64,000 nt of DNA from Leucosporidium creatinivorum. Taxonomy: Eukaryota; Basidiomycota; Microbotryomycetes; Leucosporidiales; Leucosporidiaceae. The stretch spans positions 396,041 through 460,040 of the forward strand of contig BCKL01000021.1 of assembly GCA_001600635.1 (NCBI GenBank). Reading direction: 5' to 3'. This document shows, in pieces, positions 1-61,113 of the stretch. Positions within the stretch are counted from its first letter, which is position 1. The number at the start of each line of letters is the position of its first letter. Both the position numbers and the translations under genes were made by a program. Under the pieces are notes generated by a model that saw only the letters and a program-made list of their open reading frames with translations, ran no database searches and was not told where the DNA came from.

Positions 1-240
1 TCTCTAATATGCTCTTTCGCTCGCTCAGGAGCACAGAGCTTTTTCGTCGTCCCGCCCGCCTTCCCTCGACGACGAAGGACTTAACACCTGGACCTAAGGG
101 CATGTGACGTTTCCTACGGGTTTTGCACGCTCCTCTGCCTTTTTGTAGTCGCCCCATTACGTTTAGCCTATTCGAAATGGATCGGCAGCAGCGCTCGCCT
201 TAACCGCTACTTCCCTTTTCGGTCTGCGCGAGCGCTCGGA
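1..240. other. upstream region of the first SANT gene
   Basis: No complete gene is visible. The frame of the first SANT gene stays open upstream of its first ATG at 241, so an earlier exon or start inside or before this stretch cannot be excluded. An ATG at 177 opens only an eight-codon frame. Probably promoter and 5' leader, possibly with an intron. Confidence 0.4.
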
Positions 241-2676
241 ATGTTAAGACTCGGCAACACCGAGCTTCTGCGCGCCGCCAACGGAGTGGTCCCCCGCGCC
301 CAATGGATCTCCGTCGCAGAGAAGCTGGAGCAAAGGTATCCCGCTATGCAGGGCATGGCACCGAGGACGGCTCAAGCTTGTCGGACGAGGTTCAGGCGAA
401 TTTCAAGTGAGTGAGCTGACTCGGCTTGCTCGCCGTCTCGAGCTCATCAGACTCTCATGACAGGTGTCACACCGACCGACGTCACCGCCTTAGCTACTCG
501 AGCATCTGCGCGTATCGAGTCCCATGCCACTCTACTCGGAGCTCAGTCTGAGGTCGACTCTTACGGCGAGGTTTCGTCCCCCGAGTCCGAGCCTATCAGC
601 GAGGGCTCCGAAGACGACTGGAACCCCCGCACATTGAAGAAGAAGCCTCGTCGCCGCTCTCCGGCTCGCTCCCGGTCCCCCTCCTCCGAATACGACCCCG
701 ACTGGCTCGCAACTCACTCGCTCCTCACCGGCAAACCTCTCTGGCGCGCGATGGAATGGTCGCCCGAAGACGTTGATGAGCTACTTGATGCGGTGGATGA
801 TGCTTGTGCGTTGATGGGAAGCGGTAGTAGGATGGGTGAGCTGAGTATGTCGACTTGGGACGAGATTGGGAGGAGCTTGCGGCCGGAGAGGACGGGGTTG
901 AGTTGTCGAGCCAAGGCGAGGAGGCTGAGGGTTGAGCAAGGCGGTGGGGTGGCGGAGGAGAAGGGAGATGCCATGGAGATTGATTGGAAGGATGAGCAAT
1001 CTGGTGAGCTGTCGGCTCCGAGCCCGGTGCCCCTTCGAGCAGCTCGCTAACCCTCGCTTTCCTAGTCGCTGCCGAAGCTCCCGCACCGGCGCCCGCTCCA
1101 GCTCCCACTCCTGCACCCCGTCCTACTCCTGCACCGAGCTTCGCCGAGCCTATCACACGAGCTCCTGCTCCCAAGATCCTCGCCCAAGACCTCGTCTCGG
1201 TCTCTCAACAGCCCTTCTCCTTCAAAGACGACGCCGAGATGCTGCGCCTCAACGATCTGTATCGAAGCGGACAATACAAAGGCATCTCGAGGATGTTGAA
1301 TCCGCCGAGACATAAGAACGATGTGGAGTCGAGGCTGAAGGAGCTGTGAATTTGAGGATCGTAAGGGGGATGAGCCGAGCTGATCTTTTTGACGACTCGC
1401 AGGCTCGCTCAAGCTCAGCCACAAGCTCGAGCTTCCCCGGACACCACCGTCGCTCAAAGCGTCTCCGGAATTATCGAGCAGCCCAGCATCGACTACGACG
1501 AGGATCCCGATGGTTATCGACCGAGAAGTGAGTCGAGCCTGGCTCGTCGAATCGTCGACTCGCAGCTTACGCTCCTCCTTCTGCACAGCTGCCACCCTCT
1601 CCAAGTCACCTCCACCTCGGCGCTACTTCGAACAATTTATCGACTCGGACGACGAGTAGCCTTCCTCAACCGGCGTCATCTACCACTGAGCCCAGTCCAC
1701 CGACACGGCATCGGCGAACCCTCATCGCGGGAAAGCAGGCGTCGGATACGCCTTCTCGCCAGAAGAGGACGCTATCCTCTGCAAGCACAAGCTCGGTCCA
1801 GCTTCCGAATGGCGTGGCTGGGAAGGCGTGGCGAGGGAGCTCGCCTTGAGCGCACCGCTGCCCTCTGGAGCTAAGCGGAATGGGAAGTCTTGCAGCAATC
1901 GATGGGTGATCCTATGTGAGCGAGTTCGCTGGCTACTTCTTTTCTCCAAGCTCTAAACTGACACCCTCACCTCTTCCAGCGAACAAGGAGCACAGAGCGG
2001 AGAAGCGACGCTCGGCGTCGACAGAGATGAGTGCAAAGCCGTTCGAGCTTGGTGAGTCGCCTCAGCGGTCTTCTTTCTTACACGAGCGCGACTGACACCG
2101 CGCTGATTCGGCACAGAGCTCTCTCCGAACCCTTCAAACGCCTCCTACGGCGTTCAACCCACCATTCCTCGCTCGTCCCATCCCTCTCGCGACGCACAGC
2201 CCGACTCCTCCAGATTCCACCCCGACCCCATTGTCAAACTCACGCCTTCATCAACCTCATTCGGGCCTCTACGAGCTGCCCAAGCTACTCAACAACCTCT
2301 CGACCGAGCACCTCAGCCTCAGCCTCTCCCTCACATCTCACCTCGCTCCTCTACCCACCCCTTCACCGCTCCACCCGTCCGAGCCATCACTGCCACTACC
2401 GCCGAGTACCATGGGTCTAGTATCTCGGGCTTTGAACCTCCCATCTCTCAGCTCCAAGTCCCCCCCGTCCTTCCTGCGCCTCGCCCCTGCCCTCCTCCTC
2501 AAACCCGAGTCGACCCTCCTCCGCCCGCGGTCGCTCCACTCGCTCAGCGTCAGGCTCGACTCGGCGATGGGGAGCACTGCAATTGCTCTGTACCGAGTCC
2601 GAAGCTGCAGGGAACGTTGGAGGAGGTGTTGGACATGTTTAAGAAGATGGAGGCGCCGAGGAGGAAGATCTTGTGA
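241..2676 (+). CDS. multi-SANT/Myb-module protein A
   Basis: Not a named family. Exons that keep frame: 241-406, 464-1003, 1066-1345, 1403-1527, then either a short terminal exon 1589-1659 (393 aa, ending FIDSDDE) or, by skipping to 1691, exons 1691-1915, 1980-2051 and 2117-2676 (655 aa). Modules in order: a SANT-like helix set in exon 1 (LLRAANGV to CRTRFRRIS); a second one starting MEWSPEDVDELLDAV; a type II module with GQYKGISRMLNPPRHKNDV; and, only in the long form, a third SANT domain YAFSPEEDAILCKHK to SCSNRWVIL. The long form ends with the helix GTLEEVLDMFKKMEAPR, matching the end of gene D (GTLEEALEGLAAFLE). A proline/alanine linker and basic RRRSPARSRSPS stretch suggest a nuclear protein. 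The N-terminal module lacks its usual tryptophan, so the true start may lie upstream. Function unknown; DNA or chromatin binding is inferred. Confidence 0.7.
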
Positions 2677-2858
2677 GGTGGAGGAAGGGTGGAGTGGGTT
2701 GATTGATAGGGAAAGAGGCTTCCAGGTCTGTAGTGCTGTAACCCTTGCTGTGCGACATCCTTGACCGAAGTCCGAGCGAGCAGAGAGTCGGCGCGGGAAA
2801 TCGAACTGCTTCTTGACCTTCCGCCATAACCTCGTCTCGCTCTCGCCCGCTGCTCAGG

Positions 2859-3687
2859 ATGGAGTCGCTCAACGTCGATCCTCCGCCGCTAGGCTACTTG
2901 ACTCCATACCTACACCCCATCGCTGCACCTCAACCCTCTCCTCTCCTCAGCTCGTCCTCGCCCGCCGTGCAACCCGCTCAGAAGGGTGCTCGTGGCTACC
3001 TCTGGCGACTGGAGGAAACAATGCACATCAGGGAGATGATCCAGGCGAGCCATGGAAATCGCGCCGACTGGAAGTCGATCGTCAAAGCGCTCGCCGAGCA
3101 GGTGCCAATGGGAGGCGGGCAGAGCAGGACAGCCGGGCAGTGCCAGTCGCATTGGAGGTACCGCAGTGAGCTTGAACATCTGTTACAGCCTAGGAGCGAG
3201 CTGCTCATATTGAGATTGGACAGGCAAGCCTCGTCCTTCGAGCAAGCGCGACGACGTCGACGACGACGACTCGGCGTTCGTGCCCAGGCTCAGCTCGGCA
3301 GAGGCACAGCAGTACGCCGCGCAGCCACGCTCCTCCCCTCGTACCCAAACCCACCGCGAGCAGGGCAAGCCTTCCCTCGCCTCGGTGGACGAGCAACCCT
3401 TCACGCCCGAGCAGGACGAGGCGCTTCTCGAGCTGTATCGAGAGGTCGGACCTGCTTACAAGGTTATCTCGAGGGAGATGGAGCCGATGAGACATATGGG
3501 CGAGGTGAAGGAGCGGCTCGAGTATCTGTACGTCGCCCGCTTGACGTGAGAGGCGTTCGCCGAGCTGATTCGTATCCTCGGTCCACCGCGCAGGCTGCAG
3601 CCCTACGACTTTTCCACCTTCTTCCTCGTCGTCGAAGATGCGGCAAATGAAGAACGAAAGGTCGATTTCGAGATGAAGGTCGAGTGA
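2859..3687 (+). CDS. two-module SANT/Myb-like protein B
   Basis: Three exons (2859-3165, 3224-3527, 3594-3687) join in frame to 234 aa. The first module (GYLWRLEETMHIREMI ... WKSIVKALAEQ ... CQSHWRYR) has the tryptophan and helix spacing of a SANT/Myb repeat and ends at a phase-1 intron. An acidic/basic linker follows (KRDDVDDDDSAF). The second module reads PFTPEQDEALLELYREVG then YKVISREMEPMRHMGEV and ends with RLEYL, whose last leucine codon is split by a phase-2 intron exactly as in genes A, C and D. The tail LQPYDFSTFF matches SQPYDFQPFL of gene C. Lies 182 bp downstream of gene A in the same direction, as expected of a tandem duplicate. Function unknown; a DNA- or histone-tail-binding role is inferred from the fold. 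Confidence 0.8.
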
Positions 3688-8926: not shown

Positions 8927-10769
8927 TTACCACATGAACCTCATCCTATCGACCCTCCCCTCCCAGTCAAACGGCCTCCCCACGAACATGCCGACCGTGA
9001 CAGCAGTAACAGCCAGATAACCCGCCGCCTCGAGCGCGAGTCTCCTCCTCCTCTCCCTGCCCGTCGTCTTTACTATCCTCAAATGCAGTCGGAGGATAAC
9101 GAAAGGAACAATAAAATACCGGGGCTCGATCAGCGGGCTTGGGATGAGCGTTAGAGCGAGGGAGAGGGCGTAGAAGAGGGAGGGGAGGAGGGTGAGAGTC
9201 TGACTCTGCGCCAGGCGGTCCCATAATAGACGGATGGCGAGGAGGTACAGAGGGGAGAGAGCGTAGCGCGCCCAGGGAGTTGGGTTTAGGAGCCGCCGGT
9301 AGAGGTAGAAAGTGTAGTGGCGGTTGTCGGAAAGGAGGAAGGCGTGGGTTAGGCTGAGAGGAGGGTGGTCAGCTTGGGAGGCAGGGAGAGGAAGGGAGAA
9401 GGAGGAAAGACAGGCGTACGTATAGTGCTTGATCGTCCAGCAAATACCGGCGAGAGTCATAGCTGAGTAGACGGCTCGTCTGGAGGAAGCCAGGTCAGCG
9501 AGAGGGATCGCCGAGCTGTGCAGGAGGAGGAGAGGGACTCACCTTGGGCTCCCGACAAGACCTAGGATCGCACGCTTCAATGAGGATGGCGAGAGGATGA
9601 TAGGCGCTAGGAAAGCAGCGCTAAATCCGCTGAAGTAGTACAGCTGGGTAAAGTGGAAGGTGGGGATATGGTTCGTCTTGTCGCCTGTGTCATAACATCC
9701 AGCGTCAGTGAGGTTCCTCGAATTCTAGTAGATTGAGACCAAAGCTCACCCAGCACGATCCCCCCGTTCCAGAGCACGAAACCCAAAGCTCCGAGGAAGA
9801 CGGGCACATAAGCTCGGAGGAGGGGCAAGATGGTGTGGATATTTGCGAGGGAGAGGGTGAGGAGGGAGTAGATGGATTTGGGGAGGTCCACTGTAGTATA
9901 ACGAGAGAGTCAGTCGATGTTCAGCGCAGCGCAGCGCAAGAGAGAGGAAGAAGCGACCGACCCAGCCGAGCCTGAGCCAGCGGGGGGTTATGCAGCTCTG
10001 TGAGAGGTTGCAGTCGCCGGACTACGCAGGTCGCAGCGATGAAAGCGAGCCAAATGATGTTGGTTTGGCGGAAGAAGAGGGAGGCGGCTCCTGCCTTTGA
10101 ATTGTCGGACGATTAGCTCGGCGATGCCTTCCCCCCCTCGATTCTAGACGACTTACTAAAGCAGAGTACCCCCATCTCTTCCTCAACCCCTCTCTCAAGC
10201 TCAGCATAACGAGCACCAACCCCCCCAGATCGGTATAATACAGCCAAGCGAAGAAGGCGGCGACGGGGAAGCAAGCGACGACCAATCCCTCATAGGCCTC
10301 CTCGTTATGCTCCTGCTTATCCTTTGCCGCTCGGGAAGGAGTGACTTTGCCTCGTGTTGAAGAGCGGAGGGTGGAATGCCGGATGAGGAGGAGTAGTTGA
10401 GAGTAGAGAGCCGGGAGGAGGAGGAGGAAGCCGACGTTGAGGAGGCGGAGGGAGGCTGTATGACAGGCTATTGGCTGAAGGAGGGGGAGGGAATGGGAGA
10501 TGAGGGAGGAGATGATGTATCTGTTTGGCGAGAGTTGTAGGGGATCAGCTCTCTCAGCGCGGCGAGCGAACGGGCCCCACGACGACTTACAGCCCCGGTG
10601 GAGTAGTCAACAATGGATCCCAATAGCTCCATTCCCCTCTACAATACGCTTGAGCTTGTGGTACATGTACTAGCTCGTCCATGTAAGGCTCTGGCACTTG
10701 GGTGTTGATTAGATGGCCTATCGACAGCGCTGACAAGCCGAATGCCCCGTACGCAAGAGCGCGAGCCAT
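8927..10769 (-). CDS. ALG10: dolichyl-P-Glc:Glc2Man9GlcNAc2-PP-dolichol alpha-1,2-glucosyltransferase
   Basis: ALG10 (yeast Die2) adds the third and last glucose to the lipid-linked oligosaccharide in the ER lumen, the signal for transfer by oligosaccharyltransferase. The first exon carries the signature VPEPYMDELVHVPQAQAYC followed by WDPLLTTPPGLY. Later exons give WLYYTDLGGLVLVMLSL, FFRQTNIIWLAF, FVLWNGGIVLGDKTNHIPT, FTQLYYFSGF, FLLSDNRHYTFYLYRRLL and IEPRYFIVPFVILRLHL, all landmarks of the family in the expected order. Many hydrophobic segments agree with a polytopic ER protein. At least seven short introns. Shares a divergent promoter with the mannosyltransferase gene at 11335, so two glycosylation genes start back to back. 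Confidence 0.95.
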
Positions 10770-11334: not shown

Positions 11335-12817
11335 ATGTTCTCCTCCTCCTCAAGCAAACGCCGACAAGCCCCCCTGCCCACCTCGACCAACTCTCGCAAC
11401 CCCTACATCTCCCACCGGGAGACGCGCGCGCCATCCCTCCGAGTGACCCTCGTTCAACTCTTCTCAAAGCCGAGAACCGTCCTCCTCGCCGTTGTCGGGG
11501 TTCTAGCGCTGGTGGTGTGGCTTGCTGAGGTGGGAAGGGGAGGGGAGAGGGTGAGAAGGACTGGAGGGAATAGGGTTGTCGCCAGGGATTGGGAGGAGAG
11601 GAGGGTCGTGAAGGTCAAGAGAGACGGCAAGGTCAAGCCCGATGAAATGGTTCTGGTCCGTCTCTTTCCCTCTCTCTTCCCTCCCTTCTCTCCCAAGCTA
11701 ACCAAGTGCGTGTGGCGGGTGGTGTACAGATCCTCTGCCCCATGAAAAACTCCCTCGAACACATCTGGCACTTCTTCCACCTCATCGACTCGCTCTCCTA
11801 CCCTCGTCATCTCGTTCAGATCGGGATCCTCGTCTCCGACTCCACCGACGCGACCTACTCCCGCGCCTTGGAACTAGCAGACGAGCGGCAATACACTCGC
11901 CCCAAGTCGGAGCGATACGACCGGATTTCAGTCTTCCGCAAGGACTTCGCCGAGGAGATGGGGTTCAGCGCCGAAGAACGAAACCTCGGAGGGAAGGATC
12001 GACATCTCTTCGAGGTGCAGATCAAGAGAAGGAAGGTGTTGGCTGTTAGTAGGACGTGGCTGCTCGGAGCGGCGATGAGGCCGGAGGTGGATTGGGCGTT
12101 ATGGATGGATGTCGACGTCGTGGAGTATGAGAGGGATTTGGTGCAGACGCTGCTGGGGTGGACGAGGAAGGAGGCGGTGGATGTCGTGGTGCCCAATTGC
12201 GCTTGGAAGACTTATAATGAAATGGGGTGAGGTCTGAGCGCCGAGCGCCGAGGTTGAGACTCGAGCGCCGAAGCTGACCCGCCCGAGGGTTCCATGGACA
12301 CAGGTCATACGACCGTAACAATTGGGCCGAGACGCCCGAATCCTTGGAGATGAAGTCGCATCTCTCCCCAGAGGACATCCTGATCGAAGGTATGGCATGG
12401 CCTTTCCCCCATCCTCCTGCTCGGCTGACCCCCTCTCTCCACTCCGACAGGCTACGCCTCCGACCTCCCGACCCACCGCCTAAACATGGCGGACCTCATC
12501 CCCGCCACATCCTCCACGCCCTCCTCCATGCCCCTCGACGGCGTAGGCGGCTGTACGGCCCTCGTTCGCGCCTCGCTGCATAGGAAGGGAGCAGTGTTTC
12601 CGGCGTGGCCGGTCGACCATCAGATTGAGACGGAGGGGTTTGCTCAGTTGGCGAAGGCGTTGGGTGGGCGATTGTTGGGGCTGCCCAAGTATTATGTTTA
12701 TCATGGTGGGTCGGGCTTTGTTTCTCCCTTGCTTTGAGCGCCGAAGGGGAACGCTGAACTAACTTCCTCTCTCCCTCGGTCTTGCCTTCCCCCCCTCGCG
12801 CAGGTCTTTACGGCTAG
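11335..12817 (+). CDS. Anp1/Mnn9/Van1-type alpha-1,6-mannosyltransferase subunit (GT62)
   Basis: Golgi mannan-synthesis glycosyltransferase of the GT62 family. It starts with a short basic cytosolic tail and one membrane anchor (about residues 43-66, VLLAVVGVLALVVWL), the type II Golgi topology. Splicing CTG to ATC at about 11655/11732 gives ILCPMKNSLEHIWHFFHLID, then GILVSDSTDATYS, FRKDFAEEMG, RTWLLGAAMRPEVDWALWMD with the metal-binding DVD, VVVPNCAW, and SYDRNNWAETPESL. The last exons give GVGGCTALVRASLHRKGAVF, WPVDHQIETEGFAQLAK, GLPKYYVYHG and LYG-stop, the conserved end of the family. Which yeast paralogue (Anp1, Mnn9 or Van1) is closest cannot be decided by eye. Confidence 0.93.
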
Positions 12818-19665: not shown

Positions 19666-21570
19666 ATGGCATATCAGGACAGTCCCTGCAAGCTCTTCAG
19701 CTACCTGGAGACGGCCTCTTTCCCACCCTGCGCTGCTCCTCACCCGGCCCCACTGGAATCGTTTTGGACACGGCACTTCAACTCGCCTTTGACGAAGCGG
19801 AACAGCGAGGGCGCCATTCCCGAGGTTGCAGACGTAGTAGTCATCGGCTCTGGCATCACCGGTACCTGCGCAGCGACGAGGCTAGTCGAGCAGCTGCTGG
19901 CGGAGGACGACCGCGCGGCGAACGCTGAGCCGCTCGCTATCGTGATGCTGGAGGCGAGGGACTTCTGCAGTGGAGCGACAGGTGAGCTTTCGCCATACTA
20001 CTACTGCTCTCAGACCAGCTGTAGAGCTGCTACTCGCTGTTGCCGGCTAGCTCGGCGCCGCTCGCTGACCAATCTCGGTTGCAGGTCGAAACGGGGGGCA
20101 TGTCACTTCGATCCCCAGGGTGGAGTTCGACACTATCACTTCGACGTACGGCGTCCAAGAGGCCAAGCGCGCAGTTGAGCTGGAAGACCGAGCGGTCGAC
20201 TTCTTTCTGGAGACTTGCAAAGCCGAGGGATGGGAGAAGGAGGTCGATCTCGTACAGGGTGGGAATGTGTGTGGATAAAATCGCTATCAAACCGCGCCGT
20301 CATCAGCTGACTCTTCCCACCGCACAGATTCTCCTCTTCGACGACGAAGCGAGCGCCGAGGCTATCAAACTCGAGTTCAAAGCCGCCGAGAAGGCAGGGA
20401 TCGACGTCTCCAAGATCCATTGGCTCTCAGCGGATGAGCTACTCAAGCGAGTAGGCGCCAAAGCTCACGCCGGAGTCGCCATCCCCAGCGCAAACATCTA
20501 CCCCCTCCGCTTCGTTACCGCCCTCTTCCAACGAGCTCTTCGCCAGATCTCTTACGCAGGAGACAAGCCGCCAGTATCGCTCGACGTCTACACCCACACC
20601 GTCGTCTCCACCGTCGAGCCCTCCACCCACTCGCCCTACCGCTGGACGGTTCAAACCTCTCGAGGCCCAATTCTCGCTCGCTCCGTCATTCACGCTACCA
20701 ACGGCTACGCTTCCTCCATCGTCCCCTCCCTTTCTTCTGGACCCTCTCGCATCGTCCCTACTCGCGGTCAAGTCCTCGCCTACGCCCCTCAGCCAACCTC
20801 GAACCCTCGCTGGGCGACCGCCTTCTCGGGGCCTCAGGCCCGAGAGTACTTCTTCCAGAGGCCTGATGGCGGACCCGTGATCCTCGGTGGGGCACGAGCG
20901 GCTGCTGGGCCGCCGTTCGAGTTTGGCGTGTCGGATGACTCGCACGTGAATAAGCGAGTGGAGGCCGAGCTTCGAGAGTATTTGCCGAAGCAATTCCCTC
21001 GGTGGTTTGCGGATGGGAAGGAAGGACGAGTGGAGCAATCTTGGACTGGTATAATGGGCTACAGGGTTGGAGGAGTGCCGCTGGTGGGTCGCAGCTCGGT
21101 CATCGCTCTCGCTCGTCGTCCCTGACCTCGTTCGATCCACAGGTCGGCCAGCTGTATGTCGATGGCAAGGCGCTCGAAGGCCAGTTCATCTCGTGAGTTG
21201 CTCGATGTGCTTCGAGAGGTGATAACAAGCCAGGTGCACCGCTCGCTCTTAGCTGGTTCTCGAGCTTACTCGCCGCCTCGGCTTCGGCTTCGGTCCTTCG
21301 CAGTGCCGGCTACAGCGGTCACGGAGTAGTCCGAGCGCCAGTCTGGTGTGTTGTCCTCTCTCACGCCTCGCGCCGAACCGGATGCTGAAGCTTCTCACCC
21401 ACAGCGGTCAAGCCGTCGCCGAGATGGCCCTCGCCGAGCTGCGTGGGGAGTTGATCAAGATGCCCGACTGGTTGCCCGAGCACTTCCTCTCGACGCCTGA
21501 TGGCTCAATGAACAAGGCGGCCGTACTGGAGGGACCTGAAGTGCAAGGTTCGAAGTGCTTGGTGGTTTGA
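19666..21570 (+). CDS. FAD-dependent oxidoreductase (DAO family)
   Basis: The ADP-binding Rossmann motif VADVVVIGSGITGTCAATRL lies near residue 60, followed by LEARDFCSGATGRNGGHVTS, a family signature rebuilt by splicing near 19980/20084. Further landmarks: GVAIPSANIYPLRFVTALFQ, VIHATNGYASSIVPSLS, VPTRGQVLAYAPQ, WTGIMGYRVGGVPLVGQL and, near the C-terminus, SAGYSGHGVVRAPVCGQAVA, the conserved FAD-contacting end of DAO-type amine oxidases. Substrate unknown: the group covers amino-acid and amine oxidases of cytosol or peroxisome. The C-terminus (SKCLVV) is not a typical peroxisomal signal. Five or more exons with the usual short introns. Confidence 0.9.
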
Positions 21571-21847: not shown

Positions 21848-23378
21848 ATGACGTTCCCTAGTCGCCCTTGGTCCCCGCCCGAAGTCGACCACCTGCTTCA
21901 GGCCGTCCGTGACAAAGGCGCGAAGCCGGGAGGGGAAATGGGCCTCGAAAGGCCGGTTTGGGAGGACGTTGGAGAGAGCTTTGATCCTCCTCGCTCTGCT
22001 CAAAGCTGCAGAGTCAAGTACGGCCTGTGGAGGAAAGAGCAGCAGCGCACGGGAGCGAACGACGGCTCGACAGCTCAGATCAAGACACCTCGCTCCACTC
22101 GTTCTACAGCTACTGTACGTCTAGCATGATATGCGATCTAGTTCACACGATGAAGCTGACCAGAGTTAAGGTCTAGGCCGACTTCGAAGCTCCCACCGCT
22201 ACTTCGTCCCGATTCGGAGACGTCGAGCCGCCAGCATCGCGTCCCAAGTCGTCCGAAAGCGGGACTGAGCACGAAGAAGCATCGAAGGCTTCAGAGGGAG
22301 GTCGAGTGTGGCACCAGGAGCTGGATGGAGTGCTGAAAGCTGGTGAGCGGCTACCCCTTTCTCGGCGTCAGCTCGCCTCCCTTCTCCCGCGCACTAGCAG
22401 AGCTGATACTTACCTTCGTACCCATCTTAAAGCGCTCAAAGCGATCTCTAACATCGGACGTAGGAGTGCCGTCGTCGATGGCCGTGTCGTGGCGACCTGC
22501 CGACACCCGGTCATCTCGGAGTTGATCTTGCGCAGGACAGGCAAGATCAGAACCCGAACGCAGATTGCTTCTCGCATCCAGATCTTGAAGAATACCGCTC
22601 CTGTTGATCCAGAGTGTGAGTTCTCTCTTGCGCTTCTCTAGCGGGAGGGCGAAGACCGAGGATCCGAATCCGAATCGCTAACTGACATCAGTTTTCTCGT
22701 CGCAGTCGTGAGGCTGGTCAACGAGCCCATCATCGACGGTACCGCTTTTGGAGCTCTCGACTTTGCTACCATCCTCGGCCCTCCTTACCCTACGACTTTC
22801 TCCCCCAACGCCTCGGCTGGCTCATCGAGCGCCTTCCTCGGCCATCCTACCGAGACATACCCCAAGAACAGGGCTCATGTGGAGCACAACTTCCCTCCGA
22901 AGTCTGATGTGCCCCACGCACCCGACTCGATCGCCGCTGCTCGAGCGTTTGAGGTACAGGCGGAGCGGGCGCCGAGGTTGGCGATGGACCTCGATGAACC
23001 GGCGACCTCGACGCCGTCTTCAATAGTGGATACCGAAGCCTCGACGAATAGGAGCTCCTACCTCGATGAGAGAACCTCACATGCTTCGACCCTCGTCTCG
23101 ACCGACGAGCAGCCCTTCTCGCCCGACGACGACGAAGCCTTGCTCGAGCTTTACGCTGCTTATGGACCCGCCTACAAGACCATTGCTCGAGCTATCACCC
23201 CTCAACGGCATAAAAGGGAAGTCAACGAGCGTCTGGACTACCTGTGAGTGTGGTTCCCTTCCTTCTGTTGGCGAGGAAACTAACGCCGAGCTAACTTATC
23301 TCAACGTGCAGGAGTCAGCCCTACGACTTTCAACCCTTCTTACCGCAAGCCTCGGACACTTCTATGCAGATTGACTGA
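21848..23378 (+). CDS. SANT-TEA-SANT fusion protein C
   Basis: Five exons (21848-22114, 22177-22342, 22433-22615, 22706-23243, 23312-23378) join in frame to 406 aa. Residues about 7-67 form a SANT/Myb-like module (RPWSPPEVDHLLQAV ... VWEDVGESF ... SCRVKYGLW). Residues about 134-198, split by a phase-1 intron, are a TEA/ATTS DNA-binding domain: VWHQELDGVLKAALKAI, GRRSAVVDGRVV, HPVISELI and TGKIRTRTQIASRIQILKN, matching the usual GRRKI, GRNELI and TGK-x-RTRKQVSSHIQ pattern. Residues about 342-385 are the type II module (PFSPDDDEALLELYAAYG, YKTIARAITPQRHKREV, RLDYL) ending at the shared phase-2 intron, then SQPYDFQPFL. TEA proteins (Tec1, AbaA, Scalloped/TEAD) are sequence-specific transcription factors; combination with these modules is not one I know. 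Confidence 0.85.
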
Positions 23379-23797
23379 CCCGCCAGAGGAGACGAGCGGA
23401 GTATGGTGCTTTGTGACGGATGGGGAGCGAGGGTGCCGAGCTTGAAGAGGAGCGCCGAACGGGCAGCAGACAGCGTCTGAGCTGCTGTGCTCGCTGTAAA
23501 TACAGCCCAGCAACTCGTTACCACCGCAGCTCCGTACCGAGAGATCTAGGAGAGTGGTCTGCTCGCCTCGGACCTCGCAACTTCGGCGATGGCTGTTCAG
23601 CTGGCAGCTCTTCAGGCGGGAGAAAGAGCGACAGCAAGAGGAGACATTGCAAAGCTTTCGGTTCGTGGTGTAGCTTGTGTGTGAAAGCCAGATCTAAGTG
23701 AATGTACGCGCCCAAGTGCTCGAGCTCGAACCGCTCAGCCGCTCTTTCCTTTCTCCTCATCGCTCGTCTCGCTTCTTCGACTCGCCGCCTCGCTAGG
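23379..23797. other. intergenic region between SANT genes C and D
   Basis: 419 bases, no gene recognised. The last part before 23798 is pyrimidine-rich with TTTCTCCTC, as in the leaders of the other SANT genes. Terminator of C and promoter of D expected here. Confidence 0.5.
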
Positions 23798-26277
23798 ATG
23801 GAAGAATTCGCCACGGTCGATCCCTCACTGCTCATGCACCCGGCCTACAACGCTGCCCCGGCGAACAGTGGAGCTCTGATAGCGCCAACGCAACCTCGAC
23901 CCCGGAAGAACAGGCGCTGGCCGGACGACGAGTCGGAAGCCTTACGGGAGCTCGTTGGAACATGTAGGAACTCACTGGGTCAGACTGCGTGGGCGCCCGT
24001 GCTCGAGCAGCTCACTCAGCGCTATCCACCACCACCTACTTTCCCTCCCCGAACGAAGCGCCAGCTGCAAACTCACTGGACACAAATGAACATCAACGGT
24101 ACGAGCTCTCACTTCCATGAGTGGACGCCCCCTGCTTCCCGCCGGCTCCGACGCTGACCTCAGACGTTGCAGGCGAACCTCGGAAGCGACGGCGCGATAC
24201 TACGTCTACTCCAGCTGCTGCACCCAATGCTGTAGACGATAACCGACCTCCAAAAAAGACCCGAGTGTACTCTGAAGCCCCTTTCACGCCAACGGAGGAC
24301 GAAGAGCTGCTCGGCTTGAACCGACTTTGGACGGGCCAGTACAAGCGCATCGGCCGAGCTATGGAACCTCAACGTCGCAAGCAAGACGTTCGAGAACGAT
24401 TGGATCAGCTGTATGTATATACTTGACGCCGGCTGATTTTGGAATCGAGCTGAACCCGCTCATTCGCGCAGCCTTTCTCTTTCGCCGAGCTCGGCGCCTT
24501 CGACCTCGCCTGTTCTCGCTCAACCCCAACCTCATCAAGACGCACCAGTCGACGTCAAAAGCCTCTACAAGAATCTGCGCACTCAGTACGGGCGCCGTCG
24601 CTGCCCCAAAATCACCTTCGTGCTCGAGCTCTGCTCGGCTTCGCCGCTAAGCCGCCAGGAAGGCGAGCAAGCAGGGATCGTCAACCCAATCCGTGAGCCC
24701 CAGCTGTTATATGCCGATACGGCTCGTCACTGATGCACTCTACTCGATAGCCGCTACAAACCGTCGAGCGATGCCTCCTCCCTCCACGCCTCCCTCCGAG
24801 TCAGGCGGTTCTCGGTCTCCTCGAGCCGCCGTAGCATTCACAAGTCCACCCCCAACGCCCTTTCCATCCCCTTCTCTCAACTCAGCTTCCCCCACGCCCC
24901 CTCCCCCTAGCCCTCGCCCTTCGCGCAACATCAAGCTTCGAGTCTTCTTCGACGAGGAGCAGCACAACTCGCAGCCACCGACGCGACCAGGATCTACAAA
25001 GTGGCTTCCGAGCCATACTTCCAACCTCTCTCGCGCGGTGGACGCCGCGTCAACCCTCGTACAGAGCAGCTGTCTCTCCTCCGACGAATGGGACTCGCTG
25101 GGCCGCGAATTGGAACCGGCGCGAGCTGGTCCAGCCTGTCGTCGACAATGGTTCAAGATGCAGGCCGAGAGCAGCGGGCGAGACGGGTTTGCTGGGGAGG
25201 AAGACGAAGAGGAGGAGGACAGCGAGGAGGAGGAAGAAGATGGATTGTTCACGCCCGAGGAGGACGCCGAGCTACTTCGGCTCAACGACGCGGCACCATG
25301 GGGCCAATACCGTACCATCGCTGGCTCGCTGAGTCAACCTCGCGACTGGAGATACGTTCGGCGCCGTCTTGACCAGCTGTACGTCTTCGACCTGTCCCTC
25401 CCTGCCGCCCGTTCGCCGAATTTTCGCCATTGCAGCCTCTCGGTCCGCTCCAAGCTCGACTCAACCCCCCTTCGCATCCGTCTCAGCGCTCCTTCACCCT
25501 CCCTCAAGCGTCGCCTCTCTCAATCTGTGTCTCCCAGCCCTGCAGCGGTCGATCTCAACTCGTTCAAGCCTCGCAAGAGAAACGGCAACGGATGGCTCTG
25601 GATCCCCGAGGAGGATGCTGTACTTGAGCAAATGCAAGGTTTGCCCCCGTCTGAATGGCCTGGATGGGAGGAGGTCGCTCTCGCGCTGGCCGAGGAGGAG
25701 CCGATGCCGGATTATGCTTCGCCGAGGACGGCAGCGCATTGCATGGGTCGTTGGAGGTTTCTCGGTACGCTTCGATTTTTCTACTCTACGTGCGAGTAAC
25801 TTCCGCGGACCATCCCTCCGCTTCGCTCCTCCAGAAACTCGACGCTTGGACGAAGCCCGAGCTACCTCGGTCCAGAAGTCGGTGCACGCATCGGCATCTC
25901 TAGCTTCGGTGAGCATGTCCCTGCAATTCGGTATCTTGCTCACAGCTGACCGTGGTGCATCCATGACCTCTCAGCCGCCTTCTCGAGCCCCATCGCCGCC
26001 GATCACCCCCGCCGCGAAGTTCACCTTCGGCTCCAACAGCCACCTCTCCCTTCCATCTCCTACGCCCACTCCACTTCGCCAATATTCCGCCCACTCGCCG
26101 GCGCCGGCGCTCAGAACTCCAACTCAAGCATCCCTCATTCGTTCGCAAGTCGACTCCGCGCCGGCTCGCAACGTCGATGTCGTCAAGGGGCTTGCCTCTG
26201 GCGAGCGGGAGCGGAGAGGCACACTCGAGGAGGCGCTAGAAGGACTCGCAGCGTTCTTGGAGCCATGGGAAGACTGA
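23798..26277 (+). CDS. five-module SANT/Myb-like protein D
   Basis: Seven exons (23798-24098, 24173-24410, 24472-24692, 24751-25378, 25436-25764, 25835-25908, 25975-26277) join in frame to 697 aa, so the two apparent genes here are one. Module order: type I (RRWPDDESEALRELVG ... LQTHWTQMNIN), type II (PFTPTEDEELLGLNRLW, YKRIGRAMEPQRRKQDV, RLDQL), type I (WLPSHTSNLSRAVDAAS ... CRRQWFKMQAE), acidic stretch, type II (LFTPEEDAELLRLNDA, YRTIAGSLSQPRDWRYV, RLDQL), type I (WLWIPEEDAVLEQMQGL ... CMGRWRFL), Pro/Ser-rich linker, C-terminal helix GTLEEALEGLAAFLE. Both type II modules end at a leucine codon split by a phase-2 intron. It reads as an internal duplication of a type I-type II pair. Function unknown; nuclear DNA/chromatin binding inferred. 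Confidence 0.8.
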
Positions 26278-27922: not shown

Positions 27923-30746
27923 CTACTTGTCCATCTTGACGGGAGAGCCGATAAGTTTGTTGACTGCGAGCATCGAAAGACTCTTTGGGCGCTCGAGAGG
28001 GAGTCCGAGAGCCTACAGGTAGATTGGTAGAGGTCAGCGAACGGCGCCGAGGGGGACAGACCAGGGCCGAGGGCCCGCGACGGCGACGAAGTCGGGCGAC
28101 CTCGCAACAAGCTCTGGAGACTTACACGATCCCAGACGACCTGCGAGAGGGCTCCCATGGAGCGGGAGGTTCCGAAGGTGACGGTGTAGAAGTCCTGCGA
28201 GGGTCGGATCAGCGACAGCTCGTTTGAAAATCGAGTGAAGGACTTACGAAGTTCTTCAATCCCTGTAAGCTCGACCACACAGTTCTGATCAGCTAAAGCT
28301 CGTCTGCATACAGGCAAAAGACTGACGAAGTGGTAAAGAAGCGATCCCGAAGCGGCATCGACGTTGGGGAAGGGGTTCTTGGTCTTGCCGTGCTCAGTAA
28401 GGACCTATAGAGTCGGAGTCAGCTACAGAACCACCAGAGCAATGTAGAGAGTCGATCGTACAGCGGGAGCGGTCTTGTAGAGGGCATTGACGTAGGCGAA
28501 GACGGGGTCCTTGGCGACCTCGGGGCGCGACTCTCCGAACTGCTGGAGGGCCATGAAGCGGGGGTCGGGCTTGCGGAGGACGGCGTGTCCGTAACCGGGG
28601 ATGACTGTCGAAATGCAGAGCGTGAGTTGATGAAGCTCAACAGACGTCACCGAAAGCGAGAAAGCTCACCCTGTCCCTTCTTGAGGGTCGACCAGATGAA
28701 CTCGACGATCTTCTCGTTGGAAGCTCCCTCTCCGATCTCCTTGACCATGTCGAGGATGAAGCGAAGAACCTCCTGGTTGGCGAGACCGTGGAGGGGTCCA
28801 GCGAGTCCGGCGAGGGCGGCCGAGTAAGAAAGGAAGGGGTCCGAGAGGGCCGATCCGACCAAGTGGGCGGTGTGGGCCGAAACGTTTCCACCCTCGTGGT
28901 CGGTGTGAAGAGCGTTGTAGAGACGGATGAGGTCAACGAGGCCCTCGGAGTGACCGAAGCCGATCTGGTTGACAAAGTTGAACGAGAGATCCTTGTCCAT
29001 CTGGAGGGCGGGCATGTCCTTGGCTCCTCCGAGGTAGGTGTTGCGGTAAATGCCTGTCCGGGTACGAGGATTAGGCTCGTCGAACCGGCGCCGAGAATTG
29101 CGAAAGCCGAGTCCCTGGCTCAAAACTCACGCGAGGCGATGGTGAAGGACTTGGCAACGCAGTCGAGGGAGTCCTCGAGGGTAGGGAGCCAGTAGTCGGA
29201 CTTCTTCATGCCGGCCTTGTACTGAGCGGCGAACTGGGAGTCGTGGCTGCGAGTAGCGAGGGTCAGCGATTGTCCGCTCGGCGTTCGGCACGATGGCTGC
29301 TACTCACTTGAGGGCGGCAACACCGATGACGAACTGGGTCATGGGGTGGAGGGTCTTGGCTGTACGCAAGGGAAAGCAGGGAGGTCAGCTCGCGAACGTC
29401 GGGTTCGGCGCCGAGTCGACGAAAAGACTCACGGAGAGCATCGAGGGTCGACTCGATGTGGGAGGGGAGGACGGAGCGCTTGACGAGCTCGTTCTGGAAC
29501 TGAACGGTCTCCTCGGCGGTAGGGACCTTTCCAGTGAGGAGGTACCAGAACATGGCCTCGGGGAGCATCTCCTTGCCGCCGGGGGCGGTGGGGAGGACAG
29601 CCTGGCACTCGGGAATGGTGCGGCCCCAGAAGCGGATGCCCTCCTCAGAGTCGAGGACTGAGGGCTCCCAGATCATGGCCTTGATGCCGCGCATTCCTCC
29701 GAAGACCTGCTCGACGGTAACCTCGCCGAGGACCTTGGAGCCGTGCTGGGTGCCTGTGTGGAGTTGGGTACAGGTTAGTGGCTTGTTGTCGAGTCGCGGG
29801 ATGTAGCTAAGTAGGCCTCACGGAGCTCCTTGGCGATGGCCTGCCTCTCGGGGATGATCTCGGCCATGGTCTCCTGGATGGTCTGTGATAAACAAGTTGA
29901 ACTAGAGTCAGCACATGTTGCATCGCCTTCTGATGTGTTGCTACAGCTCTGCAGAGCGTCGGCGACAGCAGGATAGCTCCACGAAGGCTCAGCGGAGTTC
30001 GAACGAACAGCTCCGCCGCAACGTCCCAGCCTTCAACAGCGATACCTCTCACTTGGAGAATACCCTCCTGTAGCTCTGCTCGGAGGTAATGCGTCGTCCT
30101 CGACCGCGAAAGGATTGCCGTCAACCGCGCGTGGTCCTGCTCCTCCCCAACGCGCGCAATAGGCGTCCTCCTGCAGCGATCCAGCGGGACCGGATCCACC
30201 GCCGAGAGTAGCACCGAGTAGACCTAAAGATATCAGGACGAGCAGCACCACCAATACCAGCGGTCGTCGCTGATATCTGGGGCTGCCACGAACCTTTATC
30301 CCTCGGTCTGCTCGTCGCCCGCATCGACCTGCCCTACTGCACCTCGATATCGCCGAGGGTATATCCATCGTGACAGCGAAATGCCAATGCTTCTCGATCC
30401 GATGTCGACCGAAGTCGAACCACACAAAGGCAGCAACCCTGGAAGCCGTCGGATCCAATCCTCCCTTTCGAACAGCGCCGGTCGACCAGCCGAGCGGGAG
30501 TTGTGGTCATGCAAGGAGCGTAGATTTACCTTGGTAGACGCATGGCGGACACCGGCGAGCCTGACGGCCGAGGCGAAGTTGCGCTGTTGGATGAGCCGGA
30601 CAAGATTGTTCGAGGAGGATGATGCATCGATGGACGGTTGGAGAGGGCGTGAGAGAATACAGAAGGTCAGCAAGCAGTTGCAGGAACATGCGCCGACTAT
30701 GTAGCGGTTTACTCACAGCAACAGACGAGCGAGAGACGGAGAGCAT
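27923..30746 (-). CDS. CIT1: mitochondrial citrate synthase
   Basis: Condenses acetyl-CoA and oxaloacetate at the entry of the TCA cycle. The ten-residue first exon ([10 protein letters not shown]) splices to [18 protein letters not shown], an arginine-rich matrix-targeting presequence; then after a 647 bp intron (29883-30529) comes [20 protein letters not shown]. Family landmarks: [118 protein letters not shown] and [17 protein letters not shown] (active-site histidines), and [20 protein letters not shown] with the catalytic aspartate. Ends VKMDK with no peroxisomal signal, fitting the mitochondrial isoform. Around ten introns, one unusually long. Confidence 0.97.
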
Positions 30747-41705: not shown

Positions 41706-44038
41706 ATGGGCGCGCTCCTCTCGATCCCTTTGCTGGGAGCTATCCCCGGTCTCGCTACTTCAGCTGCCAGTGCCTGCGTCGGGGGACTCGCCTTCTTCTG
41801 CACTGGACAAGCTGTACGTCCTCTCTCATCCCCTCTGCGCTCCGCCTTCCCATCTCTCGAGCCGCCTCGCCTCGCCGCGCTGTACCCCTCGCTAAACCTC
41901 GCTCCCCAATGTGATCTTGACTCCATACAGGCCTCCGCCCTAACCCGCTCCTGCAACTGCAACTCCTCCGTAGCCACTCGCGTCGGCTTCTCCCTCCTCT
42001 TCCTCCTCAACTCGCTTCTCGCATGGTTGATGCTCACCGATTGGGCCGTCAAAGCTATTGCCAAGTGGAGCTACGACTACATCAAGATGGACTGCGAGGA
42101 GGGGAGGTGCTACGGTGTCCTTGCGGTGAGTTGAAAGTGATGGCAGGCGCGATTCGAGGCGCTCGGCGATTGAAGCGGTCGCTGATTTTCGGCCCCCTCA
42201 CTTTTGGAACCCCTCCCTCCCGCTCAATCTCCGCCTTCACAATTTGCTCGATCCGCCCTTCACCGCACTATAGGTTCACCGCATTTGCTTCGCCCTCGCG
42301 CTGTTCCACGCCATCCTTGCCTGCCTCCTCATCGGCGTCAAGGATACTCGAACGAAGCGTGCGGCGATCCAGAATGGGTGCGCTCTTTCCTGTCCCCTTT
42401 GCTTTGGGAGAGCGGTGCTGGGAGAGCGGTGCTGATCAAGTGGCCGTTAACTTTACCTCGAACAGATGGTGGGGCCCGAAAGTAGCCGCCTGCATGCTCC
42501 TCACCGTGGCGGCCTTCTTCATCCCGAACGGCTTCTTCATGTTCTACGGCAATTGTACGTATCCAGTCTTGCATTCCTTCGCGACCTCGCTGACCCTCTC
42601 GCATCTCCCTTCGCTCGCTCACCTCCCGCTCGTCCATCATCACTCGCTTTCTCAAACCCCTCAGACATTTCCCTTCTCGGCGCCACCATCTTTATCCTAA
42701 TCGGCCTCGTCCTCCTCATCGATTTTGCTCACACCTGGTCCGAAACCTGCCTCACAAATTGGGAGGAGACCGACTCGCCCCTCTGGAAATGGACCTTGAT
42801 TGGCTCAACACTCGGGCTCTACATCCTCTCCATCGTCCTCATGGCGCTCCAGTACGCCTTCTTCTCGGGCAAGGGATGCGGATTGAACACCTTCTTCATC
42901 ACCGCCAACCTCGTCCTCTCCGTAATCGTCTCGGGCCTCTCCATCGCCCCAGCAATCCAAGAAGCCAACCCCCGCTCCGGGTTGGCTCAGAGCGGTATGG
43001 TCGTAGCCTACACTTCTTACCTCGTCACCTCGGCAATCGCAAACCACGACGATCCGACCGGCCAATCCTCCTCCTGCAACCCCCTCCAAGCTCGAGCGGC
43101 CGGAGCAAGGACGGGAATGGTCGTCCTGGGAGCGGTCTTCACCTTTCTTGCGATCGCTTATTCGACGAGTAGGGCGGCTACGCAGAGTAAGGCGCTGGTG
43201 GGTAAGGGGAGGAGGGCGAGTAATAAGGGAGTAGGAGAAGGATATGAGAGGCTGGATAGTCATGCCGAGATGGGGGATGTGGGAGACGCCAGTGTGAGGG
43301 AACAGCCTAAGAGGAAGGAGACTTTGAGGTATCAGGCTTTGATGGCTGCTGTCGCTGAGGGGTGAGTTCGGCTTTGAGTTGCCCTTGCCTCGCTTTTCCC
43401 AACTCTCGTCTCTGTTCGCTCGCTCGCTCGTCGACTGACCCTCCTACCTCCCTCTTATCACCAAACAGATCCCTCCCCGCCTCCGTCCTCGAAGAAGACG
43501 ACTCGGACGACGAGGATGACCATTCCCCCTCCTCGGACGAGCACGACGATGAGCGGTCTGGCACGAGGTACAACTATAGCTGGTTCCACGTCATCTTCAT
43601 CATGGCGACCATGTATGTTGCCATGCTGTTGACCAACTGGTGAGTCGATTTGCCCCCGTCGTCTTTTCGCCGCGCCGCGCCGCGCCGAGCTGGTCGAGCT
43701 CCCTCACCTAGCTGGCGCGTCGCGCGCTGAGCTTCCCCTCTCGCGCGGCGCGCGCACTTCCTCCTCCTCTGAGCGTTTCACTGACCCTCTCCCACCCACA
43801 CGCACACAGGAACGTCGTCTCCCCCGACCCCTCTCCCTCGCCCTCTCCCTCCTCCTTCACCTCCACCCTCCTGCACAACCTCCTCGACTCGGCTTCCGAC
43901 GCCGAAGCCACACCAGTCAAGATTGGCCGCTCCCACGTCGCCATGTGGATTCGGATCGTTAGCTCGTGGGTCTGTTTGGTGCTGTATGCGTGGAGTTTGG
44001 TCGCGCCGGTGGTGCTGCCGGAGAGATTTGGTGAATAG
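41706..44038 (+). CDS. TMS1: Serinc/TMS1-family membrane protein
   Basis: Polytopic vacuolar/endomembrane protein of the Serinc family. Landmarks: [180 protein letters not shown] and [20 protein letters not shown], then the last segment [20 protein letters not shown]. The acidic loop ([20 protein letters not shown]) before the C-terminal part is usual in fungi. About 515 residues, six or more introns. Serinc proteins were named for serine incorporation into lipids; fungal function is not settled. Confidence 0.95.
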
Positions 44039-56800: not shown

Positions 56801-59800
56801 TCATACTCTCCTCCATCTTCCTCATCATACTGCTCCTCCCCCTCTTCATCTCCTCCTTCTTCTTGCTGCTCAGCCTGCTCAACTCTGCCCAACAAGCTGC
56901 CATGCTCGGCGGACGGGGTTTGAGGCGGCGAAGAAGCGAATCCGAAGAGGGACTTGGTCGTGCTGCTAGGAGTGGTGGTGGTGGTGGTGGTGGGGAGGGG
57001 GGCGGCAGTGGGAGTTGTAGGCTTGTCGGCGGGGGCAGGTGAGGAAGGAGGAGGGGTGGTCGATGGCTGCTGCGCAGAGAGGGAGTCAGCGAGCGACTCG
57101 AGCGTCACAGGAGTACGACGAGAGTGGAATCAGCGGACCTTGTCCTCCTGCTCGATCTCTTGCTTCTTCCCCCCCACCACCTCCTCATCCTTCTTCCCCT
57201 CCACCTTCGGCGCTGCGCTCCCAAACGAGAACCCCGCACTCGGCTTCAACGCCGAGCCAAACGTGCCAAATCCACCCGCTGGAGGTGTCTTGACCATCGT
57301 AGGTGTCGCCGCGCCAAAGATGGAAGTGCCGAGGGGCTGAGACGTCGCGGGTGAGGCAGAGGGAGCGCCGAAGCCGAGTCCGCCGAGACCGAATGCCGAA
57401 CTCGAGGGGGTGGTCATGGTCGAGACTGCTGTAGAGCATGGGGAGAGTCAACTCATCGCTAGAGGCACACGATACTAGGGTAGAACGAGAAACTCACCAT
57501 CCCCCTTCCCCTCCTCCCTCTTCTCCAAGCTCCCCTTTGCCTCCCTCATGCTCTGCATCAAGTCCAACCCCTCCTTCGTCGGCTCCAGATCGGGCGGCTC
57601 GTCCGCTCGGACCTTCTTCTCATCATCCTCATCTTCTTCTTCTTCTTCTTCTTCATCGTCGTCCGAGTCGGCCGAGGGACGCGACGAGAAGGGCGAGGAA
57701 GACTTGGAGGGCGTACCAGCTGGAGAGGCAGCAGAGGAGACGCCTCCAGCTCCGAACGCAGACCCCGAACCTCCGGAACCGAAAGCTGAGCCGCCGGTGC
57801 CGAACGCCGAGGGGCCGGTCGTAGTCTTCGGCGTGGTCGAGGATGCGCCGCCGAAGATGCTCTTGCCGCCTCGAGCCCCAGCTCCCGCGCTCGCGAAAGG
57901 ACTCGCTCCCCCCGCAGCAGAAGCGAACGGACTACCCCCTCCTCCTCCCGTCGAAGCGAACGGACTTGGCCCCGTCGGCGCAGAGGAGAAAGCAGTGGGC
58001 TTGGAGAAGGCGCCGAACCCGCCTCCGCCTGCGGTGGGGGAGGAGGAGGAGGAAGTAGCGGCGGCTACGGCTGCTGAGCCGAAGCCGGCGAAACCACCGC
58101 CTGAGGTGGTGCTGGAGGGAGTACCGAAGGGGGACGCGCCGAATGCTGGAGCTGAGGTGGCGGAGGGGGCGCCGAAGGGGGATTGGCCGAAGGCGGGCGT
58201 CGAGCTGGAGGGTTTGGACGTCGAGGGAGTGGCGCCGAAGGGGGAGGATCCAAACACCGGTGTAGAGGTCGTCGTCGTCGTTATCGTTGTCGAGGGCGCC
58301 GAGGAGAAAGCGGATGTCGCGGCGAAGGGAGAGGCGCCGAACGCCGGCGCCGGCGCTGTCGACGTCGACGTCGAGCCGAACGTCGGTGCTGGTGCCGATG
58401 CCGAGGTCGCCGCTGTACTCGAGGTCGGAAGAGCACTAGAACCAAACGCCGACTGTCCAAACGCCGGCGCCGCCGCCGCTCCAAACGCCGATCCTCCAAA
58501 CGCGCTGCTGCTCGTCTTGCCCGCTCCTCCGAACGCCGATCCTCCTCCTCCTCCTCCTCCTCTCCCAAAAGCGCTGGTCGTGGGCGCAGCAGGCGTCGTC
58601 GCCGCCGCCGCAGCCCCAAACGCAGGGGACGCAGCGAACTTGGTCCCACTGCCAAAGATACTGCCCCCTCCGCCTCCGCCTTCGGCTGGCTTGGGAGCAG
58701 CAGCGGCGGCGCCGAAGGGACTGGCACTCGCCCCTCCTCCTCCGCCGAAACCGGCGAACCCCCCTCCTCCTGCTCCGGCGGTGGGTGTAGCAGAGGGCGT
58801 AGCGCCGAAGGAGGCGAACCCCCCTCCGGCGGTCGAGGTGGTGGTGGTGGTGGAAGAGCCGCCGAAAGGGGAGCTACCGAACGCAGGCGTCGCGCTTGAT
58901 GGTGCGCCGAAGGGTGAGGCTCCGAAAGTGGGTTTGGCCCCGAAGGCAGGTGCTCCGAAGCCGGTTGAGCTGGAGGAGGAGGAGGGGACGGCGAAAGGCG
59001 AGGCTGAGGGGGCGCCGAATGGATTGGAGGTGGAGGTGGAAGTGCTGAAGGGGTTGGCCTGAGCTGTAGGAGCGGGAGTGGGAGCGGGAGTGATGCTCAT
59101 CGCTTCTGCGTCTCCCTGCTGTGACTGTGCGGCGACGGCGGGGGGAGCAGAGTCGGCCAGCTCCTCCTGACTCAACACGTCGAGCCAAGGGGCCCATCTC
59201 ATCCCCTCGTACTTCTCCTCCCCGTTCCCTCCGCTCGGCATCTCATTCCCCACGCGCCAGGAGACGAGCACGCCCTCGGAGGTATAGACCCATACCTCTG
59301 GCTTTCCTTGCCCTGCTCCAGCCTCAGAGCTGAGGACCAACTCGAGCGCGAGGGGACAGACGTCGGACCCTTCGTCGGTGAGGGGGAGGGAGGGGCGCGA
59401 GGTGTCGGGGAGGAGGAGGGAGGACCATGAGCTTCCGGATCCGGAGAGGGATTGGGATTGGGATTGGGATTGGGATTGGGATTGGGATTGCGAGAGGACG
59501 CCGACGTCGGTGGAGGGGGAGGAGGCGAGGAAGAGGAGGTGCGAGTAGGGGTTCCTATTGCCGTTCGCCCATGCCGCATCTGTGTCNGNGNGNGNGNGNG
59601 NGGGGGGGGGGGGGGGGCGGGCGAGAGAAGAGAGAGCGGAGAGAGAGAGAGAGCGGAGAGGCGAACGAGAAGGAGAGAGAGAAGAAACACTGGACGTACC
59701 AATTCCTGAACCGCCCAACCCACCTCCTCGGCCCTCTCTCCATCATCCCAAACGCCGGCGTCGGGTCCATAAACCTGGTATACTCGACTTCCCCTCCGAC

Positions 59801-61113
59801 ACTTTTACTAAGGACAAATACCTCCTCCTCGTGGTCCGGTTCGGCGCCTGCGCCCGGCTGCGAGGGCCGACCATAAATCACGAGCCAAACGGTATTCTCC
59901 AACCACTCGAGCGCTCGGACTTGCCACTGTCCTCCCATTTCGAGTAGCGAAGGTGGGAGAGGGAGTTGCGCGCTCTTCTGCTGGCCTTCGGGAGTCCATT
60001 GGCTGATCCCTCCCGATTGGGTGCCCAGCGTGACTTGCTTGCCCTTGACGGACCAGGCGAGCGCGGTGGGAGGGGAAGGGAGCGGAGGGAAGGGAGTGGT
60101 GAGGGCGAGGGTTGAGAGGTTGTAGAGGTGGAGGGTTTGGGAGGTGGAGAGACCGAGGAGGAGGGGGGAGGAGGGGGAGGGGCAGGGGAGGAGGTGGGTG
60201 AGGGGGGAGGGAAGCGAGGGTAAGAGGTGCGAGGGGGTGGGCTGGATTGTCGGTCGGAGGGAAGCGGGAGGGGGTTTAAGCGAACGCTCGTCGGCGCCGA
60301 GCTGGACAGCGACAAAACTCACGTTGCCTTCTACCAAACTTTTGAGCCTCCAGACGCCGAGGGTGCCGTCGCGGAGAGCAGCGACCACGGCTTTGTCACT
60401 CGTAGCGAACTTGAGGTGGTCTACTGGGGCTGTGGTGGGGATTTCGAGGGTGGGAGGGACGGTCGGAGTGGTGTGCGCGGGGGTGGTGCTGAAGGTGGAG
60501 AGGAGGAGGGAGAGGGGGAAGAGGGAGAAGCCTGTAGCATTGTATGGGGGGTCAAGGGAGTTAGCGGGTAGCTCGGTGTAGGGCGGTAGGTGAGGAGCGA
60601 GCAGCTGCCTCTGACGCGCGAAGGAGGCGGCCAGATCCGCCCGGGTGACTCCGTAGAGCACTGTAGCGAGCTGCAAGATCTTTTGGATCGTCCCGACTTA
60701 GCTCGGCAACTGCCTCTGCTCCGCTACAGCTTCCCCCATCCACTTCTTTCCAGCTCAACGCGTCCACCTCGTCTGGGCGCCCCCAGCTCCCTCTGTAGCG
60801 CATGCAATTCACCTTGATTGGTCCCAGCGACACACCAGCCAAAGGTATTGCTAACGGCGAGTAACGCCGCTCCCTGATTGTTGGTCCCATTGCCATTGGC
60901 ATTGGCAGGGCTGAGGATGAGAGGTTGAGGAGAGAGACGGAGCGTGACGCCTTGAGTTGGCGGGGTGAGGGTGAGGTACTGGAGAGGTACAGGGGAGTCA
61001 GCTGTGAGCTGGAGAGGTACAGAATGGGAGGAGAGAGGGGAAAGACTGACGGGAGCATCCTGTTCAACTGCTTCCACCTCGGTTGAAGAGGACGAGGTGA
61101 GTTGCACTTCCAT
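53625..61113 (-). CDS. NUP159: nucleoporin NUP159/NUP214 type
   Basis: Cytoplasmic-face FG nucleoporin that docks the mRNA export helicase Dbp5. The N-terminal part (from 61113) is a beta-propeller: AALLAVSNTFGWCVAGTNQ, DHLKFATSDKAVVAALRDGT, LGVWRLKSLVEGN, LALAWSVKGKQVTLGTQSGG-like strand pairs, EMGGQWQVRALEWLENTVWL and VIYGRPSQPG. The centre (about 59040-57600 and 57100-55600) is a long FG-repeat region (ASPFGAPSS, FAGFGGGG, AFGQSPFG), very Ala/Ser/Thr/Pro-rich. Then a helical part: FLKAYLRVEKDFEI, LGDLGKLREATKKIEPSVRE and LVEKAQQQKRQAAELQSLIL. The C-terminus is highly acidic (EESFDDDEEDFEEEDGED). Over 2,000 residues. An NG-ambiguous tract and a G16 run lie in an intron at 59587-59617, and the frame across that intron could not be closed. 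Confidence 0.9.
59447..59490. repeat. hexamer repeat coding for (Ser-Gln)n in NUP159
   Basis: About seven tandem copies of ATTGGG (plus strand). On the coding strand this reads TCC CAA and gives a Ser-Gln run at the end of the propeller region. Likely length-variable between strains. Confidence 0.9.
59587..59617. other. ambiguous (NG)8 tract followed by a G16 run
   Basis: Alternating N and G at 59587-59601, then sixteen G bases (59602-59617), inside a NUP159 intron. It looks like a poorly read dinucleotide/homopolymer repeat rather than a scaffold gap, as the Ns are not contiguous. Confidence 0.9.

Follow-up and report, generated by a model that had tools for sequence, protein, structure and literature searches.

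A gene on the forward strand of Leucosporidium creatinivorum contig BCKL01000021.1 (gene T, 21848-23378) appears to encode a single protein with two kinds of DNA-binding domain. In our splice model and Pfam searches of the window, the whole 64,000-nucleotide stretch that was analysed, T comprises five exons and 406 residues that carry a Myb-like repeat, a TEA domain and another Myb-like repeat. In fungi, TEA factors such as Tec1 and AbaA control filamentous growth and conidiation, and in animals TEAD controls growth. A protein that unites TEA with Myb repeats would bring a new domain architecture to this family. The domains, the exon structure, the relation of T to its neighbouring paralogues and the lack of a start codon of its own for the TEA frame were all seen in the sequence. 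We think it probable, with room for real doubt, that T is a single nuclear DNA-binding protein in which a TEA unit was joined to a Myb-repeat family, and that the TEA domain and its flanking repeats would together choose composite sites.

The exons of T (21848-22114, 22177-22342, 22433-22615, 22706-23243 and 23312-23378) splice to 1221 nt, which corresponds to 406 residues and a stop codon. All four introns (62, 90, 90 and 68 nt) have GT-AG ends, and the original prediction that five exons yield one unbroken 406-residue protein was reproduced when the model was rebuilt. Exon junctions were placed from the sequence alone. A codon score trained on our hand-built models of the paralogues A, B and D ranked the modelled frame best of three offsets in each of the five exons (in exon 3 with only 0.009 per codon). 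The score does not separate exons from introns: the best frame of intron 2 reached 0.118 and that of intron 4 reached 0.29. Intron 1 is the sole phase-0 intron of the four and contains a CTGAC branch-like site 16 nt before its end. Intron 2 (22343-22432) is 90 nt long, a multiple of three, is free of in-frame stops and splits the TEA match; its retention would add 30 residues within the first part of the domain. Exon 3 (22433-22615) is 183 nt long, has phase 1 on both sides and encodes the greater part of the TEA domain. A transcript that skipped this exon would stay in frame.

The TEA/ATTS domain spans residues 132-199 (22303-22596, interrupted by intron 2). Pfam TEA (PF01285) matches it over profile positions 3-68 of 68 with 52.1 bits (E = 8e-14), and the curated cut-off is 25.1 bits. 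The original prediction had placed the domain at about residues 134-198 and had named a score below threshold as a result that would count against it; the match is instead full-length and scores about twice the cut-off. A search of PDB sequences with T's TEA domain found TEF-1 and TEF-3 chains (best E = 2.5e-6), which make up five of the six sequences at E values up to 1. AlphaFold modelled exon 3, taken by itself, with low confidence (mean pLDDT 64.9). The 17 rows of a PDB search with that model included neither a TEA chain nor any match at E of 0.001 or below. Given this low-confidence model, the claim of a TEA fold is drawn from the sequence profiles. No second or degenerate TEA domain was detected in the window when T's TEA was compared by phmmer with the 1484 six-frame stop-to-stop ORFs of at least 25 residues (next best E = 1.1), a search with one query sequence that a very divergent TEA domain could escape. 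We considered a segment of paralogue D (24472-24690) as a degenerate TEA domain and set it aside; it matches no Pfam family.

Judged by its residues, the TEA domain of T is divergent. It is identical to TEF-1 at 22 of 67 aligned positions. The GRNELI stretch of TEF-1 reads CRHPVI in T, and in the recognition helix (RTRKQVSSHIQVL in TEF-1, RTRTQIASRIQIL in T) ASR stands in place of SSH, a stretch that is common to Tec1 and AbaA. Because the GRNELI and SSH stretches are altered relative to TEF-1, the domain may not bind the usual site. The same alignment shows RTGK, RTR and IQ conserved around helix 3. With a net charge of +10 and a pI of 11.8, TEA is the only strongly basic module of T. Neither strand of the four stretches scanned ahead of T, A, B and D carries a TEA-type CATTC[CT] site.

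The two modules that flank the TEA domain are Myb-like. The N-terminal repeat, s1 (residues 8-65, 21869-22042), matches Pfam Myb_DNA-binding as a fragment with 19.0 bits (E = 0.0015), below the cut-off of 24.4. Its relative in gene A, a repeat at 757-939, shares 44% identity with it (tblastn E = 1.6e-7) and reaches 27.8 bits, above the cut-off. Module s1 is also weakly related to 24978-25187 (28%, E = 0.008). The C-terminal module, c (residues 340-385, 23107-23244), matches Myb_DNA-bind_6 (PF13921) as a fragment with 30.3 bits against a cut-off of 22.9, and Pfam places the repeat at residues 343-394. It is through this module that T counts as a Myb-like protein, if one repeat above a Pfam cut-off is taken as the mark of membership. 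An NCBIfam search gave no match near a cut-off. The original prediction described the modules as SANT-type and the second as family-specific. Myb-like is the better fitting term, as the Pfam families above cut-off are Myb families, and while the second module does belong to a local family, it is itself Myb-like.

That these modules are part of a local gene family is borne out by relatives in three further forward-strand genes of the window. Gene A (241-1659), gene B (2859-3687; three exons, 234 residues, two Myb-like modules) and gene D (23798-26277; seven exons, several Myb-like modules, 697 residues in the variant used, one of four splice variants found) were modelled by hand, with intron ranges picked by eye. 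Pfam searches of A, B and D returned Myb-like matches and a TEA domain in none of the three, so that T alone among the four models carries one. The c module is present in five copies, once each in T, A and B and twice in D, and all five c-module exons are preceded by a phase-1 intron and followed by a phase-2 intron. Genes A and D have an s1-like repeat and then a c module, whereas T has the TEA domain between the two. Of the three paralogues, B is the one most closely related to T at the C-terminus. Forty of 69 residues agree between T and B across the c module, past a shared intron and into a QPYDF tail. Estimates for this pair (dN 0.36, dS 2.05; NG86) yield a ratio that is rough because dS is near saturation, pointing to purifying selection on the C-terminal region.

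The earlier suggestion of domain shuffling within the local family fits these observations, in that A, B and D share the Myb-like modules and are without TEA. Exon 3, with its 1-1 phase symmetry and length of 183 nt, has the form that would be expected of a shuffled exon. A clean transfer of one exon does not explain everything, because the first TEA residues are encoded on exon 2. The change may have run either way, with a TEA domain acquired by a Myb-repeat gene or Myb modules acquired by a TEA gene.

Several features of the surrounding sequence are worth recording. Gene A may run on via a longer intron, to 2675, instead of ending at 1659; the region 1660-2675 holds a further Myb-like module at 1738-1914 (15.8 bits, below cut-off) and a tail that, by eye, resembles the end of gene D. 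In gene D, the intron that follows the second c module has no in-frame stop and may be coding sequence. The Myb-repeat genes form two forward-strand clusters (1-3687 and 21848-26277) about 18 kb apart, and at least three other genes lie between them, with matches to DIE2/ALG10 (8930-9460), Anp1 (11706-12227) and DAO (20331-21122). These are among 6 of 19 other ORFs scanned that match Pfam families, the rest being citrate synthase (28650-29123), Serinc (42466-43362) and NUP159/214 (59558-60676), which is ordinary content for a eukaryotic chromosome.

The five-exon model could falsely join a neighbouring Myb-repeat gene to a TEA gene. In favour of such an error, the phase-0 intron 1 of T has no counterpart after s1 in the paralogues, where A has a phase-1 intron and D has no intron before its c module. 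The ORF that holds the TEA frame (22177-22638), however, contains no ATG, and an in-frame TAG lies directly before it, at the splice acceptor. For the TEA frame to be read from an ATG, it must thus first be spliced to an exon further upstream, and we judged a separate TEA gene unlikely on this ground. The GT-AG ends of intron 1 and its branch-like site also speak against a false join, as does the homology of T's c exon to the c exons of its paralogues, with intron phases alike. Together, we regard a false join as very unlikely. We also considered intron 2 as coding sequence and rejected it: exons 2 and 3 score 54.5 bits against TEA when spliced, compared with 44.2 when intron 2 is kept in the same frame and 41.3 for exon 3 alone. 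Exon 2 alone gives no TEA match, and the TEF-1 alignment is ungapped at the intron 2 junction. Alternatively, exon 3 could be a cassette, such that alternative splicing of T would yield both Myb-only and TEA-containing proteins. The exon begins and ends in the same phase and its length is a multiple of three; intron 2 is likewise divisible by three and stop-free in frame. Yet lengths divisible by three are found in 7 of the 16 introns of the four models, so this property of intron 2 is nothing unusual, and chance alone may give an exon the same phase at both ends. A cassette role for exon 3 strikes us as improbable.

For a single protein that combines TEA with Myb-like repeats, the reading we prefer, the following course of events can be envisioned. 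A TEA coding unit would have been joined to a member of the locally duplicated Myb-repeat family to give gene T. The TEA domain, as the one strongly basic module, would most likely do most of the sequence-specific recognition, at a TEA-type site (containing ATTC). The flanking Myb-like repeats could add a second DNA contact or bind a partner, and T would in this way select composite sites. We infer the nuclear location of T, its binding to DNA, its choice of composite sites and the direction of the fusion. Both c and s1 are slightly acidic overall, which suits contacts with proteins as well as with DNA. In a bolder version, a TEA exon block entered the Myb-repeat cluster while it was duplicating and gave rise to a TEA-Myb factor, specific to this lineage, that reads composite TEA and Myb sites and whose skippable TEA exon switches it between two target sets; we would call this a long shot.

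Two other accounts of how T works divide the labour among its domains differently. In one, the Myb-like repeats are SANT-like modules for contact with proteins or histones, the TEA domain alone reads DNA, and the role of T is to hold a chromatin partner at TEA sites. The net charges of c (-2) and s1 (-1) are consistent with this account, as is the position of s1, on its own, under the Pfam cut-off. When a profile of the five c modules was run against PDB sequences, five of the eight sequences matched were the splicing factor CEF1, and a role of the c module in protein contacts is possible because the matches after the best one are mainly to CEF1. That best match, however, is MYB21 (E = 0.00015), a DNA-binding Myb protein. 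The Pfam families that score above cut-off are, moreover, Myb DNA-binding families, and the presumed third helix of s1 (picked by eye) is basic, at +4, with +1 for that of c. We consider the SANT-like account possible but somewhat unlikely. In the other, the TEA domain of T is a relict, or has been re-specialised, and an ATTC-type site is no longer read. The low identity to TEF-1 and the altered GRNELI and SSH stretches would be expected of such a domain. Against it stand a full-length profile match with twice the cut-off score and the conserved RTGK, RTR and IQ around helix 3, and we are doubtful that the domain has lost its usual site. We continue to favour a protein in which TEA and the Myb-like repeats act together on composite sites. 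Paralogues that lack TEA, all within about 22 kb, are natural reference points for studying how domains come to be combined in this way and what the combination contributes.

T resembles the TEA/ATTS factors in its full-length TEA domain, recognised by profile and by PDB sequence matches to TEF-1 and TEF-3, and differs from TEF-1, the factor covered by our residue comparison, in the GRNELI and SSH stretches. To our knowledge, the known members of this family (Tec1, AbaA, TEAD/TEF) have no Myb repeats. In titles and the beginnings of abstracts from the literature on fungal TEA factors, surveys of fungal transcription factors and TEAD-DNA structures, we found no Myb-TEA protein, although protein databases may hold such entries. 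Searches for relatives of the whole of T in viral contigs gave 10 pattern matches, and searches for relatives of its TEA domain in prokaryotic contigs gave 521; none was confirmed in either set. Tec1 of Flammulina filiformis is likewise a TEA-family factor, from a mushroom, and its DAP-seq motifs include ATTC; Myb repeats go unmentioned in the available part of its description (PMC13117471). In another source, TEA and Myb are listed as separate fungal classes (PMC3998117).

TEA and Myb domains both adopt three-helix, homeodomain-like folds. A pairing of the two might, because of this shared fold, be left out by definition from a list that counts only domains of different classes. Fungal transcription factors that combine two DNA-binding domain types form an established group (PMC5415576). 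Table 3 of that survey gives 12 fungal dual types from 191 TFomes, TEA being in none of them, under criteria that call for domains of different classes and for types present in five or more genomes; the word 'myb' is absent from its main text (PMC5415576). Like the dual-specificity factors treated in that work, T has two DNA-binding domain families and relatives with only one, and at the level of the gene model both families are present in one polypeptide. The original prediction went further and proposed a new class of transcription factor. Its TEA domain and its architecture have held up; the new class is no more than a suggestion. It is plausible that T is a dual-domain transcription factor with a pairing of domains that we have not found in print. 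T is no less a relative of the Myb-like multi-repeat proteins (PF13921/PF00249), with which it shares two Myb-like repeats akin to those of A, B and D, and from which it is set apart by the TEA domain between them.
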